A program made the position numbers and the translations under genes. The notes under the pieces are model-generated. The model did no database searches. It was given only the letters and a program-made list of their open reading frames with translations, and was not told the origin of the DNA. A stretch of 64,000 nucleotides of DNA, from positions 2,480,001-2,544,000 of the forward strand of contig NZ_AP027141.1 in NCBI RefSeq assembly GCF_027943945.1, read 5' to 3'. Positions within the stretch are counted from its first letter, which is position 1. The number at the start of each line of letters is the position of its first letter. Shown in pieces: positions 43,989 through 48,797 of this stretch. This stretch comes from Microbacterium terricola. Its GTDB lineage: Bacteria > Actinomycetota > Actinomycetes > Actinomycetales > Microbacteriaceae.

Positions 43989-45296
43989 TCAGCGGAAGTC
44001 CGCTGTTCCTTCTTCGTACTCGGCGCCGAGGTTGGCGTTCGTCGTCGCGGCATCCTGCGAGCCGGTCACGAGGCCCTGCAGTTCGCGGACGATGACGTCG
44101 TAGAAGCCGGCGGCGGGCCAGTCCGGGTAGAACGAGAGACCGTCGTTCTCGAGGACGCCGTTGAACGTCGCGATGAGCTCCTGGCTCTTCGGGTCGGTGA
44201 TGTCGGCCGGGTCGGCGGCGACGGGGACGCCGCCGTTGTTGCCGATGATCGCCTGGATCTCCGGGCGCATCGTGATGTCGATGAACTCGTACGCGAGCTC
44301 CTTGTTGGCCGCGTTCTCCGGCACGACCCACAGGTTGCCCGACGAGCCGAGCGAGAGCGTCGAGTCCGGGAAGGACTGCAGCGTCCAGTCGAAGCCGGCC
44401 TGCTCGACGAAGCGCCCGTACCACCACGAGCCGGACACGAAGATCGGGGCGGAGCCGTTGATGAACGAGACGCCCGCGTCCTCTGCCTTGACCGACGACA
44501 CGTCGCTGGCGATGTAGCCCTTGTCGACGTACTCCTTCAGGGTGTCGGTCGCGTAGGTCACCTCGGGTCCCTGCCAGTCCACGGGGTTCTCGTAGAGCTG
44601 GTAGTCGTTGACGAACTGACGGTCGGCCTGGCTCAGTGCGAGCTGGTACCACAGCTGACCCAGGGGGTATTCGGCGCCGGCCTCGGCCAGCGGCGTGATG
44701 CCCTGGTCGACGAACGCGTCCAGCACATCGACGAACTCGTCGTAGGTGGTCGGGATCTCGAGGCCCGCCTCCGCGAAGGCGTCCTTGTTGTAGTAGACGC
44801 CGACGAACTCGCCGTAGTTCGGGATGCCGTACCAGGTGTCGCCGCCCATGACTCCGTCTTCGGAGTACTTCGCCGTGGTCTGCAGCGAGGGCGCGAGCTT
44901 GTCCGCCCAGCCGTACTCGTCCACGGCGTCCGAGATGTCGGCGATGAGGCCGGTCGAAGCGAGGAAGCCCGCCGTGGCGTTGCCCTTGTTGAACTCCATG
45001 AGGTCCGGCGCGGCGTCCGAGTCGAGCACCTGGCTCGCGGTCTTCTGGATCTGCTCGAACGACTTCTGCTCGAACTCGACGGTCGCGCCGGTCTCCTCTT
45101 CGAAGACCTTGATCGCCTCGTCCCACGCCTTGGCCATCGCGCTGTCTTCGCCCTCGTAGTGCCAGAGCTTGAGGGTGTCGCCGTCGCCGGTGTCGCCGCC
45201 GCCGCCGGAGCAGCCGGCCAGCGCGAGCGCGCCGGCGGTCACCACCCCCACGGCCGCGAGAGCGCGGGTTGTCGACTTCTTCGTCATGCGTGCCAT
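43989..45296 (-). CDS. Extracellular sugar-binding lipoprotein of ABC importer
   Basis: This 435-residue solute-binding protein opens with a basic N-terminus (TKKSTTR), a hydrophobic signal and the lipobox ALAGCSGGGG, so it is a lipoprotein on the outer face of the membrane. The body has cluster 1 binding-protein features: TLKLWHYEGEDSAMAKAWDE, YGIPNYGEFVGVYYNKDAF and a C-terminal region IDITMRPEIQAIIG. The ATG at 45296 is chosen because AAGGAG lies eight bases upstream. It is the first gene of the transport and hydrolase operon. Confidence 0.92.
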   Translation of the reverse strand: MARMTKKSTTRALAAVGVVTAGALALAGCSGGGGDTGDGDTLKLWHYEGEDSAMAKAWDEAIKVFEEETGATVEFEQKSFEQIQKTASQVLDSDAAPDLMEFNKGNATAGFLASTGLIADISDAVDEYGWADKLAPSLQTTAKYSEDGVMGGDTWYGIPNYGEFVGVYYNKDAFAEAGLEIPTTYDEFVDVLDAFVDQGITPLAEAGAEYPLGQLWYQLALSQADRQFVNDYQLYENPVDWQGPEVTYATDTLKEYVDKGYIASDVSSVKAEDAGVSFINGSAPIFVSGSWWYGRFVEQAGFDWTLQSFPDSTLSLGSSGNLWVVPENAANKELAYEFIDITMRPEIQAIIGNNGGVPVAADPADITDPKSQELIATFNGVLENDGLSFYPDWPAAGFYDVIVRELQGLVTGSQDAATTNANLGAEYEEGTADFR

Positions 45297-45339
45297 CGTC
45301 GGCACTCCTTTCTCGTGTCCGGCTGCGCCGGGCGGTTCA

Positions 45340-45389: not shown

Positions 45390-46406
45390 TCAGTGCGAGC
45401 GGGGAGCCGCGACCGATCCCCGATCGATCAGGGTGGGCGCGATGAGGTGCAGACCGGGCAGGGGCGGGTCGTCGGTGAGGCTGCGGATGGCCAGGGCGAC
45501 GGCGAGGTCGCACGAGGGCTCCGGCTGCAGCGGGATCACGTCCAGCGGAACCGACAGGGCCGACGTGTCGAAAGACGCCGCGACCGAGACCACGGAGATG
45601 TCCTCCGGCACCCGCAGCCCGCGCTCGTCGAGCTCGGCGAGAACGGCGTTGTGCACGTCGTCCGCGGCGTGGATGAGGATGGCGGTGACCCCCGAAGCGA
45701 GCATCTCCGACACCGCGGACCGCGACGTGGCGGCGTGGGAGGTGCGCGTTCCCGACGCCCGGAAGGTCAGTGACGCGCCCCGCTCGGCGGCACGCCGCTC
45801 GCTGGCGCGTCGCAGCCTGGGCGGGAAGTTCGACTTCTCGTAGGCCACCTCGGGCTGTCCGACCAGTCCGATGCGGGTGTGCCCGGCGTCGGCGAGCCGG
45901 TCGACGGCGAGCTCTGCGGCGCTCTCGAAGTCGAGGTCGACGCAGACGAGGCCCTCGTGGTCATCGGGCACGCCGATGAAGACGGTCGGCGTCGAGACCC
46001 TGCGCGAGAGGGCGACGCGCTCGTCGTCGGGGGCGACGTCGAGCACGAGGATCGCGTCGACGAGTCCGCTCGAGGCGACGCGGCCCATGCCGGCTGATGC
46101 CTGCTCGTCCGTCAGCAGCAGGACGTCGTAGTCGTGGCGGCGTGCGGCGATCGCCGTCGCCAGCACGAACGACATGTGGGTCGGCGCGTGCGAATCGGTG
46201 CGCAGGGGCTCGGTCAGCGCGAAGATCTGGGTCCGGCTGCCCGCCAGCATCCGCGCTCCCGCGTTCGGGCTGTATCCGAGCTCGCGGACCGCGGCCTCGA
46301 TGCGTCGCCGCGTCGAGGGCGACACCGGCCGCTTGCCGCTGAGGGCGTACGAGACGGTGCTGATGGAGACACCGGCGGCCTTGGCCACCTCGTCGATCTT
46401 CGCCAT
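45390..46406 (-). CDS. LacI family transcriptional regulator
   Basis: This is a 338-residue repressor. The DNA-binding headpiece is IDEVAKAAGVSISTVSYALS followed by GKRPVSPSTRRRIEAAVREL and hinge GYSPNAGARMLAG. The rest is a periplasmic-binding-protein-like sugar sensor. The ATG at 46406 has CGGAG before it and is where the family starts. It lies directly upstream of the binding-protein gene in the same direction. Matching operators lie before both genes, indicating control of the operon and of itself. Confidence 0.93.
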   Translation of the reverse strand: MAKIDEVAKAAGVSISTVSYALSGKRPVSPSTRRRIEAAVRELGYSPNAGARMLAGSRTQIFALTEPLRTDSHAPTHMSFVLATAIAARRHDYDVLLLTDEQASAGMGRVASSGLVDAILVLDVAPDDERVALSRRVSTPTVFIGVPDDHEGLVCVDLDFESAAELAVDRLADAGHTRIGLVGQPEVAYEKSNFPPRLRRASERRAAERGASLTFRASGTRTSHAATSRSAVSEMLASGVTAILIHAADDVHNAVLAELDERGLRVPEDISVVSVAASFDTSALSVPLDVIPLQPEPSCDLAVALAIRSLTDDPPLPGLHLIAPTLIDRGSVAAPRSH

Positions 46407-46438
46407 CCGAGACTCCGTCGTCTTGTGTGAGTGAACTG

Positions 46439-46465
46439 TCGAAGCGTTTCGCGGAAGCGCTTCGA
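46439..46465. promoter_or_regulatory. Double LacI operator before the regulator gene
   Basis: TCGAAGCGTTTCGC (46439-46452) and CGGAAGCGCTTCGA (46452-46465) are two imperfect operator copies. Together they also form one larger inverted repeat, CTGTCGAAGCG...CGCTTCGACAG. They lie just downstream of the -10 box of lacI, fitting autorepression. Confidence 0.8.
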
Positions 46466-46470
46466 CAGCG

Positions 46471-46499
46471 ACTGTAGGGCCATCTTCGGAGATGCGCAA
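46471..46499 (-). promoter_or_regulatory. Promoter of the LacI-type regulator gene
   Basis: Read on the minus strand: TTGCGC (46499-46494), 17-base spacer, TACAGT (46476-46471). The operators follow immediately downstream at the expected transcription start. Confidence 0.6.
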
Positions 46500-46602
46500 G
46501 ACATTTGTCGGAAGAAACCACAAATCGGTGGGCGGCCATGTGCGGCGGCGATTGAGCAAAGTGACATATTTCGTCACAGAACGGATGCTGCAGCTGGGCG
46601 AT

Positions 46603-46632
46603 TTGACGCGCGCGGACGCATTCGGTCATAAT
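46603..46632 (+). promoter_or_regulatory. Strong sigma-70-type promoter of the short leader ORF
   Basis: TTGACG (46603-46608), 18-base spacer, CATAAT (46627-46632). The ATG of the short ORF at 46640 lies seven bases after the -10 box, so the transcript should start at the codon itself. This is the best consensus promoter in the window. Confidence 0.75.
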
Positions 46633-46639
46633 CGGCCTC

Positions 46640-46741
46640 ATGACTGACACCGCACGTTCTCTGTCCGCCTGGGAGGCGAACGGGACTGCCGGCACCATGA
46701 TGGCCGGCCGCGTTGTCATGTGTTGTCGAATGTGCCGCTGA
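46640..46741 (+). CDS. Leaderless 33-residue leader peptide ending in MCCRMCR
   Basis: A short reading frame starts with MTDTARSLSAWEANG and ends in VVMCCRMCR followed by TGA. Three cysteine codons (TGT TGT, then TGC) crowd into the last six positions, including the less common TGT. It is driven by a strong promoter with no leader and lies 195 bases before an orphan winged-helix gene, with hairpins between. This matches the plan of leaderless polycysteine short ORFs shown in mycobacteria to act as cysteine-responsive attenuators. Here the target would be a regulator gene instead of sulfur metabolism genes. The role is inferred; the frame, promoter and codons are seen. Confidence 0.65.
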   Translation: MTDTARSLSAWEANGTAGTMMAGRVVMCCRMCR

Positions 46742-46757
46742 CACGGTGACCCCCGCT

Positions 46758-46914
46758 GGACTCCGTTCGCGCTTCTGAAACACGCGAGCACCGAGTCCCC
46801 GAGCACCGGATGCGCCTCACCGCCGCGCACACCGACTGCTCCGCACACGGTCCACAACCAGGACCGCGACTGACAACACCGCCGAACCCGCTCACAGGCG
46901 AATCGCCCGGGTTC
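46758..46914 (+). promoter_or_regulatory. Three-hairpin leader region (candidate attenuator)
   Basis: Hairpin 1 is GGACTC...GAGTCC (46758-46798) enclosing TCGCG/CGCGA. Hairpin 2 is CGGTCC-loop-GGACCG (46848-46866). Hairpin 3 is GAACCC...GGGTTC (46884-46914), with GGCGAATCGCC inside, just before the ribosome binding site AAGGA at 46922-46926. No clear T-run follows, so control may act through translation or Rho. Confidence 0.5.
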
Positions 46915-46936
46915 TCATCCCAAGGACTCTCCTCTC

Positions 46937-47659
46937 ATGTCGAACACCGCGATCCTCGACCGACCGACCGACAACCGCCCCAGCCTCCGCCTCGTCCCCG
47001 ACGTGGCCGAGACCGCCGAGGCAGCTCCCGCCGCCCCGCAGCGCCACCTGCCTCCGGGGGTCGCTCCCCGCGGCTTCGCCCTGTACGTGGGGCTCGATGA
47101 GGCGAAGGCGGCAGCATCCGGCGTCAGCCTGAACGTGCTCGTCGACGCGCTGCGCCGCACGATCGCCGAGCTCTCGCCCGAGGCCGAGACCTACGCCACC
47201 GTCGCCCTCGCGCCGGTCGGCGCCGGTGGCCGCGACGTCGACGTCGTGCGCCTCGCGCTGCACGAGCCGTCGGCCGTCGCCCGCACCAAGGCCGAGGAGA
47301 CCGAGGACGAAGACCGCGCGCCCGGCGGCGTCGTGGTCGACATCTCGCGCAAGCGCGTGCTCATCGACGGCGAGTCGGCCGCGTTCACCTTCAAGGAGTT
47401 CGAGCTGCTGCAGTACCTCGTCCTCCGTGAGGGCCGCACGATCGAGCGCACCGAGCTCGTCGGGTCCCTCTGGCAGCAGGGCGACGCCGATGCACCCGGC
47501 GAGCGCACCATCGACGTGCACGTGCGCCGCCTGCGCGCGAAGCTCGGCCGCTACGAGGACATCGTGCGCACCGTGCGCGGCGTCGGGTACCGGTTCGACC
47601 GTCACGCCGACGTCGTGATCCGCTACGGCCACGGCACGCCGTCGCCCGACCGCTTCTAG
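46937..47659 (+). CDS. Orphan winged-helix (OmpR/PhoB-type) DNA-binding protein
   Basis: This is a 240-residue protein. The C-terminal third is an OmpR-type winged helix: DGESAAFTFKEFELLQYLVL, then REGRTIERTELVGSLWQ, TIDVHVRRLRAKLG and wing VRTVRGVGYRFDRH. The N-terminal part has no receiver domain and no phosphorylation aspartate. It includes LYVGLDEAKAAASGVSLNVL, DALRRTIAELSPEAETYATV and an acidic linker. It is therefore an orphan regulator not controlled by a standard histidine kinase. AAGGA lies ten bases before the ATG. It follows a cysteine-codon leader peptide and hairpins, which probably set its level. Confidence 0.85.
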   Translation: MSNTAILDRPTDNRPSLRLVPDVAETAEAAPAAPQRHLPPGVAPRGFALYVGLDEAKAAASGVSLNVLVDALRRTIAELSPEAETYATVALAPVGAGGRDVDVVRLALHEPSAVARTKAEETEDEDRAPGGVVVDISRKRVLIDGESAAFTFKEFELLQYLVLREGRTIERTELVGSLWQQGDADAPGERTIDVHVRRLRAKLGRYEDIVRTVRGVGYRFDRHADVVIRYGHGTPSPDRF

Positions 47660-47795: not shown

Positions 47796-48797
47796 GTGAC
47801 TCCGGGCGTGCGTGAACTCAGCGGGCAGATGCTCGCGGAGCCGCGCCCCGCGCCCGCTCGCGACCCGCGCCCGGCGGCGACGCGCCCGCTCGAGTCCGAG
47901 TATCGGCCGCGGGGTGCGCTCGACCTCCACCGCACCGTGGTGTTCCAGCGGCGCGGAGCGAACGACCCGACTCTCGTCACGGCCGGCCCCGTCATCTGGC
48001 GCGCGAGCCGCACGCCGCAGGGTGTCGCCACCCTGGCGCTGCGCGCGACTGCCGACGGCGCCGTCCGCGCCGCAGCGTGGGGCCCCGGCGCCGCGTGGGC
48101 TCTCGACCAGGTCCCCGGCCTGTGCGGCGCGCACGACGAGGCCGAAGGGTTCGATGCCACCACGCATCCCCTCATCGCCGACGCCCACCGTCGGCACCCC
48201 GGCCTCCGGCTCAGCCGCACCGACCTCGTCTTCGACGCGCTCGCCAGCGCGATCTTCGAGCAGAAGGTCACCGGCCTGCAGGCGTTCGCGGCGTGGCGCC
48301 GCATCGTCACCTGGTTCGGCGACCGGGCGCCCGGACCGACCCCGCGCCCGATGTTCGCACCGCCGTCCATCGACGGCTGGCGGCACGTTCCGTCGTGGTC
48401 GTGGCATCGTGCCGGGCTCGAACCGCCGCAGTCGCGCGCCGTCGTCGAAGCCGCTCGCCGCGGCGAGGCGATCGTCCGCGAGACGCTCCTCGCCCCCGAC
48501 GGGCCTGGCCGCGACCGCGTCCTCACGAGCGTGCGCGGCGTCGGGCCGTGGACCGCGGCCGAAGCACGCATCCGCGCCTTCGGCGATCCCGACGCGGTCA
48601 GTGTCGGCGACTTCCACCTCGCCCATCACGTCGGCTACGCCCTCGCCGGCGCACGCACCGACGATGACGGGATGCTGCGCCTCCTGGCCCCGTGGTCCGG
48701 TCACCGGCAGCGGGTCATCCGACTGATCGGTGCGGCCGGTCTCATGGAGCCCCGTCGTGCACCGCGACTTCATCCGGAGGACCACCGCGACCGCTGA
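47796..48797 (+). CDS. DNA-3-methyladenine glycosylase 2 family protein (AlkA-like)
   Basis: This base-excision repair glycosylase of 333 residues belongs to the HhH-GPD superfamily. The core starts with LVFDALASAIFEQKVTGLQA. The hairpin-helix-hairpin is VRGVGPWTAAEARIRAFGDP and the catalytic aspartate lies in AVSVGDFHLAHHVGYAL. The first 120 residues correspond to the AlkA N-terminal beta domain. It would remove alkylated bases from DNA. GTG 47796 follows TAGGGT (47784-47789) by six bases; leaderless. Confidence 0.9.
   Translation: MTPGVRELSGQMLAEPRPAPARDPRPAATRPLESEYRPRGALDLHRTVVFQRRGANDPTLVTAGPVIWRASRTPQGVATLALRATADGAVRAAAWGPGAAWALDQVPGLCGAHDEAEGFDATTHPLIADAHRRHPGLRLSRTDLVFDALASAIFEQKVTGLQAFAAWRRIVTWFGDRAPGPTPRPMFAPPSIDGWRHVPSWSWHRAGLEPPQSRAVVEAARRGEAIVRETLLAPDGPGRDRVLTSVRGVGPWTAAEARIRAFGDPDAVSVGDFHLAHHVGYALAGARTDDDGMLRLLAPWSGHRQRVIRLIGAAGLMEPRRAPRLHPEDHRDR

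Follow-up and report, generated by a model that had tools for sequence, protein, structure and literature searches.

A 33-codon leader ORF ending in cysteine codons was found ahead of the gene for an orphan winged-helix regulator in Microbacterium terricola, within the 64,000-nucleotide stretch of DNA that was analysed as a whole (the window) and whose nearest named proteins come from Microbacterium. This leader is probably the sensor of a ribosome-mediated attenuator that tunes the regulator to the supply of Cys and Met. The sequence basis of this reading consists of the ORF, its promoter, its conservation, its coupling to the regulator, the interchange of Cys and Met between families, and complementary RNA arms. 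A wider claim, that one ancient Micrococcales circuit uses such a leader to set the amount of a sulfur/thiol transcription factor, its control codons having been switched between Cys and Met from family to family, is tentative, with the balance somewhat against it.

The leader ORF occupies 46640–46741 on the forward strand and encodes MTDTARSLSAWEANGTAGTMMAGRVVMCCRMCR, with the C-terminal end MCCRMCR and the stop codon TGA. Its Cys codons are TGT at 46721, TGT at 46724, and TGC at 46733, in agreement with the earlier note on this DNA, which had described Cys-Cys-Arg-Met-Cys-Arg with two TGT codons just before the stop. The putative control codons, TGT TGT CGA ATG TGC (Cys-Cys-Arg-Met-Cys; 46721–46735, forward strand), are conserved in Microbacterium, and Met or both Cys and Met take their place in other families. 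A sigma-70-type promoter was predicted at 46603–46632 on the same strand (TTGACG from 46603, an 18-nt spacer, and CATAAT to 46632), with 10/12 matches; 50 shuffles yielded 0.1 such promoters on average, compared with the one observed. Seven nucleotides separate the end of the −10 hexamer from the leader ATG at 46640, which bears out the near-consensus promoter and the spacing claimed in that note. This geometry is compatible with a leaderless start at the leader ATG in the window and in relatives, where the same spacing recurs, and leaderless-type promoters scoring at least 9/12 preceded 58 of 90 Microbacteriaceae leaders. On the two strands of the 64-kb window, two ORFs of 15–60 codons had at least three Cys in the last six codons, and only the leader had a leaderless-type promoter of at least 9/12. 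The string TGT-TGT-CGA is unusual here because TGT and CGA are rare in the five adjoining genes, whose 1674 codons include no TGT, five TGC, and five CGA (of 122 Arg codons). The leader ORF and the regulator gene are separated by a spacer of 195 nt.

The finding was taken as real because of its conservation. The Cys-end 15-mer TGYTGYCGNATGTGY was present in 141/149 Microbacterium genomes, and the fetched locus of a genome without it (L016, from G047) had a leader with PCRMC. When Microbacterium loci were selected solely through the regulator, 30/30 had a leader; 28 of these leaders ended in CCRMC, one (L024) carried CCRMC and five further codons, and one had PCRMC. The frame and Cys codons on which the earlier note had staked its reading were kept in these relatives (CCRM in 29/30 and PCRM in 1/30). 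CGA lay within the last six codons in 29/30 of the same leaders, and L024 also carries CGA; the loci for this codon count were selected through the regulator only. The first 60 loci of an earlier codon table had been selected by a pattern fixing Cys and CGA, which makes its Microbacterium counts of these codons circular. Its 36 other-genus leaders (CGA in 36/36 and Cys32 in 35/36) were not fixed by the pattern but were chosen with a score favouring CC-R-M-C, and the table omitted the 12 of 90 distinct leaders that are not of 33 codons. Across relatives, the Cys codons alternate between TGT and TGC. Amino-acid identity of the leader was high within Microbacteriaceae. The synonymous-biased conservation of the ORF suggested earlier was absent, since the whole-ORF pN/pS was 0.94 in Microbacterium and 1.46 in other genera. 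Values near or above 1 indicate that constraint on the nucleotides is as tight as that on the peptide.

A profile built from 15 peptides matched in 170/249 Microbacteriaceae genomes and 67/85 genera (E ≤ 0.01). The order-wide search of 297 genomes with the leader profile gave 22 Microbacteriaceae matches at E 7e-12 or better and three further matches at chance level (E 0.003–0.01); leaders of the other families were located only via the regulator. The N-terminal motif of the regulator was found downstream of the leader in 47/49 fetched loci (control, 0/49), and at one of the two remaining loci the contig ends too early. Rfam gave no match in the window at the gathering threshold and none across 11 loci with E values of 1 or less, and NCBIfam gave none for the two leaders tested. 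The idea that the circuit had been lost from small genomes negative for the profile proved wrong, as the regulator was present in 19/20 of them and a divergent leader in 15/19. Leaders of the profile-negative Microbacteriaceae (19 loci) include MTTRAQLDGAPQGAMMPCSMCMCMCMCR and MTTQAFSPAPTIMVARVDMCACRMCCCC; some have a single Cys (e.g., ...VLRRRMCR), and the leader of one Microbacteriaceae with a 1.5-Mb genome contains MCMCMCMCR.

The regulator gene (46937–47659, forward strand) encodes a 240-aa wHTH protein of the OmpR/PhoB type with orthologues in four families. Its only Pfam match was Trans_reg_C (residues 146–220, E 4.1e-21), and no receiver domain was among its Pfam and NCBIfam matches, all those shown beginning at residue 103 or later; the description of an OmpR-type regulator without a receiver was thus upheld. 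The N-terminal part matched no family in these searches. In the predicted structure (pTM 0.45), the DNA-binding domain was confident, and the N-terminal part mostly had pLDDT of 66–84. The protein shares its winged-helix DNA-binding domain with the OmpR/PhoB response regulators and GlnR but, unlike them, lacks a receiver and has an N-terminal part that is unrelated or unrecognised. In an order sample of 79 genomes, orthologues including the N-terminal part were found in Microbacteriaceae and three further families. An orthologue was present in 80/80 Micrococcaceae genomes and 47/47 Dermabacteraceae genomes, and also in Brevibacterium. The gene that follows the regulator (47796–48797) had no match in Pfam or NCBIfam at E 0.001.

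The orthologues in Micrococcaceae, Dermabacteraceae, and Brevibacterium were preceded by leaderless-type ORFs of different sequence, so that leader and regulator are not confined to Microbacteriaceae, the family named in the earlier note; the four related families concerned are soil and skin bacteria. Across these families, the leaders carry Cys codons (CCRMHA), Met runs (MMSMMMMPMMHRQPSL), or both. Micrococcaceae leaders are GTG-started (e.g., VNKNSTAPAAAEYWPSTSAAADMRCCRMHA) and have ends of the type CCRMHA/CCCRMQA. An ORF with RM near its end was found in 71/80 named loci of this family, with Cys in the last eight residues in 71/71. The codons preceding its invariant CGA-ATG are often Cys-Cys and also Cys-Leu, Cys-Tyr, and Cys-His, the invariant codon being CGA and not Cys. 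Dermabacteraceae leaders read MTSIATRCQTTRRVVRSAMRAMMSMMMMPMMHRQPSL or MFTNAPSREVATTAARSMMRSMMMCMCMMHRQPSL, and Met made up 42.5% of the last 14 residues in 20 leaders. These Met runs contradict the idea that cysteine is the sole amino acid involved. The Brevibacterium leaders MTSTTHSTRMCPAGMCMLCVRCR and MFFLQRMPMLCVRDLTC, read by eye from the DNA, both contain Cys and Met; an ORF scan gave longer, GTG-started versions. A uniform test, in which a promoter score of at least 6 and at least four Cys or Met in the last 14 residues were demanded, was passed by 26/26 loci of Dermabacteraceae, 4/5 of Brevibacterium, 15/19 of profile-negative Microbacteriaceae, and 41/80 of Micrococcaceae, and the opposite-strand control by 0/26, 0/5, 0/19, and 4/80, respectively. 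Four profile-negative Microbacteriaceae loci and 39 Micrococcaceae loci failed it, and 5 of 31 Dermabacteraceae loci, which lie on short contigs (L177, L181, L188, L189, and L192), were omitted. In these comparisons, Cys or Met near the stop appears as the feature kept across families, and a sulfur-amino-acid signal would be the simplest common factor of the replacement.

Three hairpins between the leader and the regulator had been pointed out before and were seen in the predicted fold, but alone they are weak evidence because the fold of 46640–46960 improved only slightly on that of shuffles (z = −1.58; 4/100 shuffles equally good) and because no intrinsic terminator-like site was found in 46380–46960, where ending may yet depend on Rho. 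In the predicted fold, a 5′ stem arm, GTGTTGTC, lies inside the Cys codons (46720–46727, forward strand) and has modest support in Microbacterium; the window pairing joins GUGUUGUC at these positions with the 3′ arm GACAACAC (46872–46879, forward strand). Another predicted stem on this strand joins GGACTC (46758–46763) with GAGTCC (46793–46798), and in several other genera its arms seem to be swapped (GAGTCC, then GGACTC) in alignments read by eye. A possible hairpin, GAACCCG/CGGGTTC (46884–46890 with 46908–46914), and a Shine-Dalgarno-like AAGGA (46922–46926) were read from the forward strand.

The leader tail was paired with the 90 nt immediately preceding the regulator, and the result was compared with that for shuffled versions. 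The pairing in Micrococcaceae was −17.5 vs −13.6 kcal/mol for shuffled versions, with 33/65 loci in the best 5%, and that in Microbacterium was a modest −14.8 vs −12.8, with 9/38 in the best 5%. Microbacteriaceae outside Microbacterium showed weak pairing (5/31 in the best 5%) and a consensus fold of −6.2 kcal/mol. The putative complementary arms are accordingly described as strong in Micrococcaceae and modest in Microbacterium. In Micrococcaceae, the regulator starts 89–189 nt past the leader stop (one wrongly assigned ORF excluded), and GCATTCG, the complement of CGAATGC in the leader, lay downstream in 63/71 loci, compared with two for the reversed 7-mer. The stem formed by the last codon and stop in this family scored 5.05 vs 4.74 (maximum, 4.95) with G-U pairs allowed, better than all 300 arm shuffles; with Watson-Crick pairs only, it scored 4.86, below the arm-shuffle maximum of 4.88. 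In the Micrococcaceae CGAATG stem, the bases that vary showed no covariation. The consensus folds were −151 kcal/mol in Dermabacteraceae (22 sequences) and −50 kcal/mol in Micrococcaceae (67 sequences). The near-invariant Dermabacteraceae fold has its 5′ arm in the codons directly after the Met run, and little covariation is visible in it because the sequence hardly varies. In L165–L194, the leader-regulator spacer of about 170 nt in this family is almost invariant and strongly folded, and ACCGGGA can pair with TCCCGGGT downstream; the spacer is a suitable candidate for a new RNA-family entry. A pairing between the Met triplet and the regulator start (CATCATCATG) was rejected as a general feature, as it occurred in 2/25 other-genus loci and was absent in the window; it spanned at least nine bases in 24/35 Microbacterium loci (own, 9.20; arm-shuffle mean, 8.70). 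At 46937–47056, the regulator start context is CCATCATCATG in many Microbacterium, complementary to ATGATGATGG of the leader, and the window has CTCCTCTCATG.

In the proposed mechanism, the transcript would start with the ATG of the leader, which a ribosome would begin to translate immediately. When charged Cys-tRNA (Met-tRNA in other families) is scarce, the ribosome would slow at the Cys or Met codons close to the stop. The control codons, or the codons just after them, would constitute one stem arm, and the other arm would precede the Shine-Dalgarno site of the regulator. A stalled ribosome would hold the stem open, and regulator expression would therefore change, an increase being most likely. 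Stalling, its direction, and control of the translation or transcription of the regulator are what we infer here, together with service of the regulator to sulfur or thiol metabolism; the "master sulfur switch" is hypothetical. Of the cysteine-attenuator reading in the earlier note, the predicted leaderless ORF, the kept Cys codons, the coupling to the regulator, and the complementarity at the leader end stood, and the synonymous bias and the restriction to Cys fell. If the mechanism is true, the target of amino-acid attenuation here is a transcription factor rather than a biosynthetic operon, and evolution exchanged the sensed amino acid while the circuit stayed. The Cys/Met switch would then be a natural experiment on whether the quantity sensed is "sulfur supply" or "one amino acid". 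The mechanism would also offer the first lead on the function of an orphan regulator that is almost universal in four bacterial families, and how these families control their use of sulfur could be tested with a single reporter and a single knockout.

Leaderless polycysteine short ORFs act as attenuators in mycobacteria, according to the available portions of Shell 2015 (PMC4633059) and to papers citing Canestrari 2020, and the precedent invoked in the earlier note was found there (PMC4633059). Like those ORFs as these portions describe them, the Microbacterium leader is a short, putatively leaderless ORF with adjacent, conserved Cys codons beside the stop, kept in relatives and located upstream of the gene presumed to be controlled. 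The mycobacterial ORFs precede cysA2 and other cysteine-related genes, whereas the gene downstream here encodes the wHTH regulator and not a sulfur- or cysteine-metabolism protein; our case also differs in that Met replaces Cys in Dermabacteraceae and in the complementarity of the leader end to the sequence ahead of the regulator start. The leader most likely works like the mycobacterial attenuators, by analogy, minus one defining feature, the sulfur operon downstream. Candidate Cys leaders were described in 2005 upstream of cys operons in Mycobacterium and P. acnes and upstream of cbs in B. longum; they share with ours the Cys codons near the stop and the lack of an obvious terminator, but concern other genes and other families, and no Met-type case is reported for Actinobacteria in the portions available (Seliverstov 2005, PMC1262725). 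The uORF attenuator of M. tuberculosis ilvB1 is likewise an actinobacterial leader reading amino-acid supply and differs in its branched-chain codons, intrinsic terminator, and biosynthetic operon, as far as the available text goes (PMC13236596). The copper-responsive upstream ORF CruR resembles the leader as a translated upstream ORF controlling downstream genes in the part of the report at hand (PMC9426467). Unlike a trp-type transcription attenuator, the locus has no intrinsic terminator before the regulator gene (46380–46960). New relative to known Cys leaders are the gene targeted, the spread over four families, the variants that use Met, and the complementarity between RNA arms. No description of the leader or regulator was found in the open-licence PubMed Central literature, outside which most subscription papers fall.

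An operator-like site, GTGACATATTTCGTCAC, lies 5′ of the promoter at 46561–46577 on the forward strand in an alignment of 16 loci, and other Microbacterium read GTCACATTTCGTCAY at this site. The motif TGTCACATTTCGTCAY, with up to one mismatch, occurred in 15/59 Microbacterium genomes with no control matches; 13 of the 15 places were at the regulator, one (L237) was at the leader, and one (L235) was not placed. The site of the window itself does not fit this motif. A Microbacterium regulon based on the motif was rejected because 14/15 places sit at the regulator or leader, and the site is possibly used for autoregulation. In 61 Micrococcaceae genomes, the tandem TRTTAC-N14-TRTTAC gave 34 places, 28 of them with the TTACTTGC signature of the leader promoter, and 10 control matches, and a RTCTCACNATGTGGAC-like site with at most one mismatch was found in 39/61 genomes with two control matches in all. 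Thirty fetched RTCTCACNATGTGGAC sites lay at the regulator (12), at acetolactate synthase (ilvB)-like genes (9; L195, L196, L202, L203, L205, L212, L213, L214, and L219), at 3-isopropylmalate dehydrogenase (leuB)-like genes (3; L206, L215, and L217), and elsewhere (6), the ilvB-like and leuB-like names being our own reading of the genes. In the available portions of two reports (PMC4340878, PMC8222616), NdgR binds a 15-bp palindrome at ilvB and leuB, and its control extends to cysteine genes in Streptomyces. An NdgR/LtbR-like operator may be common to the Micrococcaceae leader promoter and the ilvB- and leuB-like genes, a link that is only suggestive because the Micrococcaceae motif, at 16 bp, is one base longer than the published one. 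The RTCTCACNATGTGGAC palindrome possibly marks a BCAA regulon of Micrococcaceae. Similar NdgR-like sites were visible by eye in Dermabacteraceae and Brevibacterium promoters; the RTCTCACNATGTGGAC form was not found in Microbacterium, where promoters carry GTCACATTTCGTCAY.

The main rival to the attenuator reading, which we consider rather improbable, is that the leader is a metal-sensing nascent peptide, metal on the emerging peptide altering the stall as in CruR, which belongs to another phylum and controls other genes. Cu(I) is bound by Cys, Met, and His, and the Cys/Met interchange and the His in MMHRQPSL, RMHA, and MCCRMCH would also suit soft-metal ligands. Copper control via an upstream ORF is published, as the available part of the CruR report states (PMC9426467); unlike for CruR, no metal link was found for the present leader. 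Many Micrococcaceae leaders are poor in ligands (e.g., RCYRMHA), peptide length and spacing vary greatly, and the Micrococcaceae operator is common to ilvB- and leuB-like genes, not to genes reading as metal genes (6/30 sites unassigned), all of which argue against this rival. It is also rather unlikely that an RNA element, either riboswitch-like or bound by a protein, is what is conserved and that the ORF mainly overlaps it. The pN/pS near 1, the invariant CGAATG, and the strong structure in Dermabacteraceae and Micrococcaceae would fit such an element, but Cys/Met codons are kept at the ORF end despite quite different RNA in the families and small genomes, leaderless promoters are positioned at the ATG or GTG, and Rfam has no match.

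Leaders of the whiB7 type are gauges of general translation speed or translation inhibitors, and slow decoding of the rare TGT, TGT, and CGA might report on these rather than on sulfur amino acids. The rarity of TGT and CGA in the five adjoining genes and the CGA in 29/30 leader ends of the unselected Microbacterium set agree with this possibility, which is nevertheless improbable, as Dermabacteraceae leaders have Met runs instead of such codons and the CGA is explicable by pairing. That the leader is a small protein acting in trans is very improbable. The high amino-acid identity within Microbacteriaceae would be expected of such a protein, but synonymous change is not in excess over replacement change, the peptides of the four families have little in common beyond Cys/Met, and the position ahead of the regulator is constant.

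As for the genes that an attenuated regulator might serve, motif scans and sulfite reductase loci revealed no sulfur genes tied to it. In 13 sulfite reductase loci of the genus, neither a promoter-linked Cys leader nor a common motif was found; one locus (L246) had a Cys-rich ORF far upstream without a placed promoter, and two (L242 and L251) had single GTCAC pairs. A NIR_SIR match was absent in 9/29 Microbacterium genomes, and the role of the regulator is not sulfite reduction alone because all nine keep the leader 15-mer. A contig titled Vibrio cholerae strain 35D (L272) carried a 95%-identical Arthrobacter-type regulator with its leader and is most likely a mislabelled or contaminated assembly. 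In the window, a divergent LacI-type regulator gene (45390–46403) stands beside a sugar-ABC transporter set (SBP at 43989–45305) and belongs to an ordinary sugar-uptake locus.
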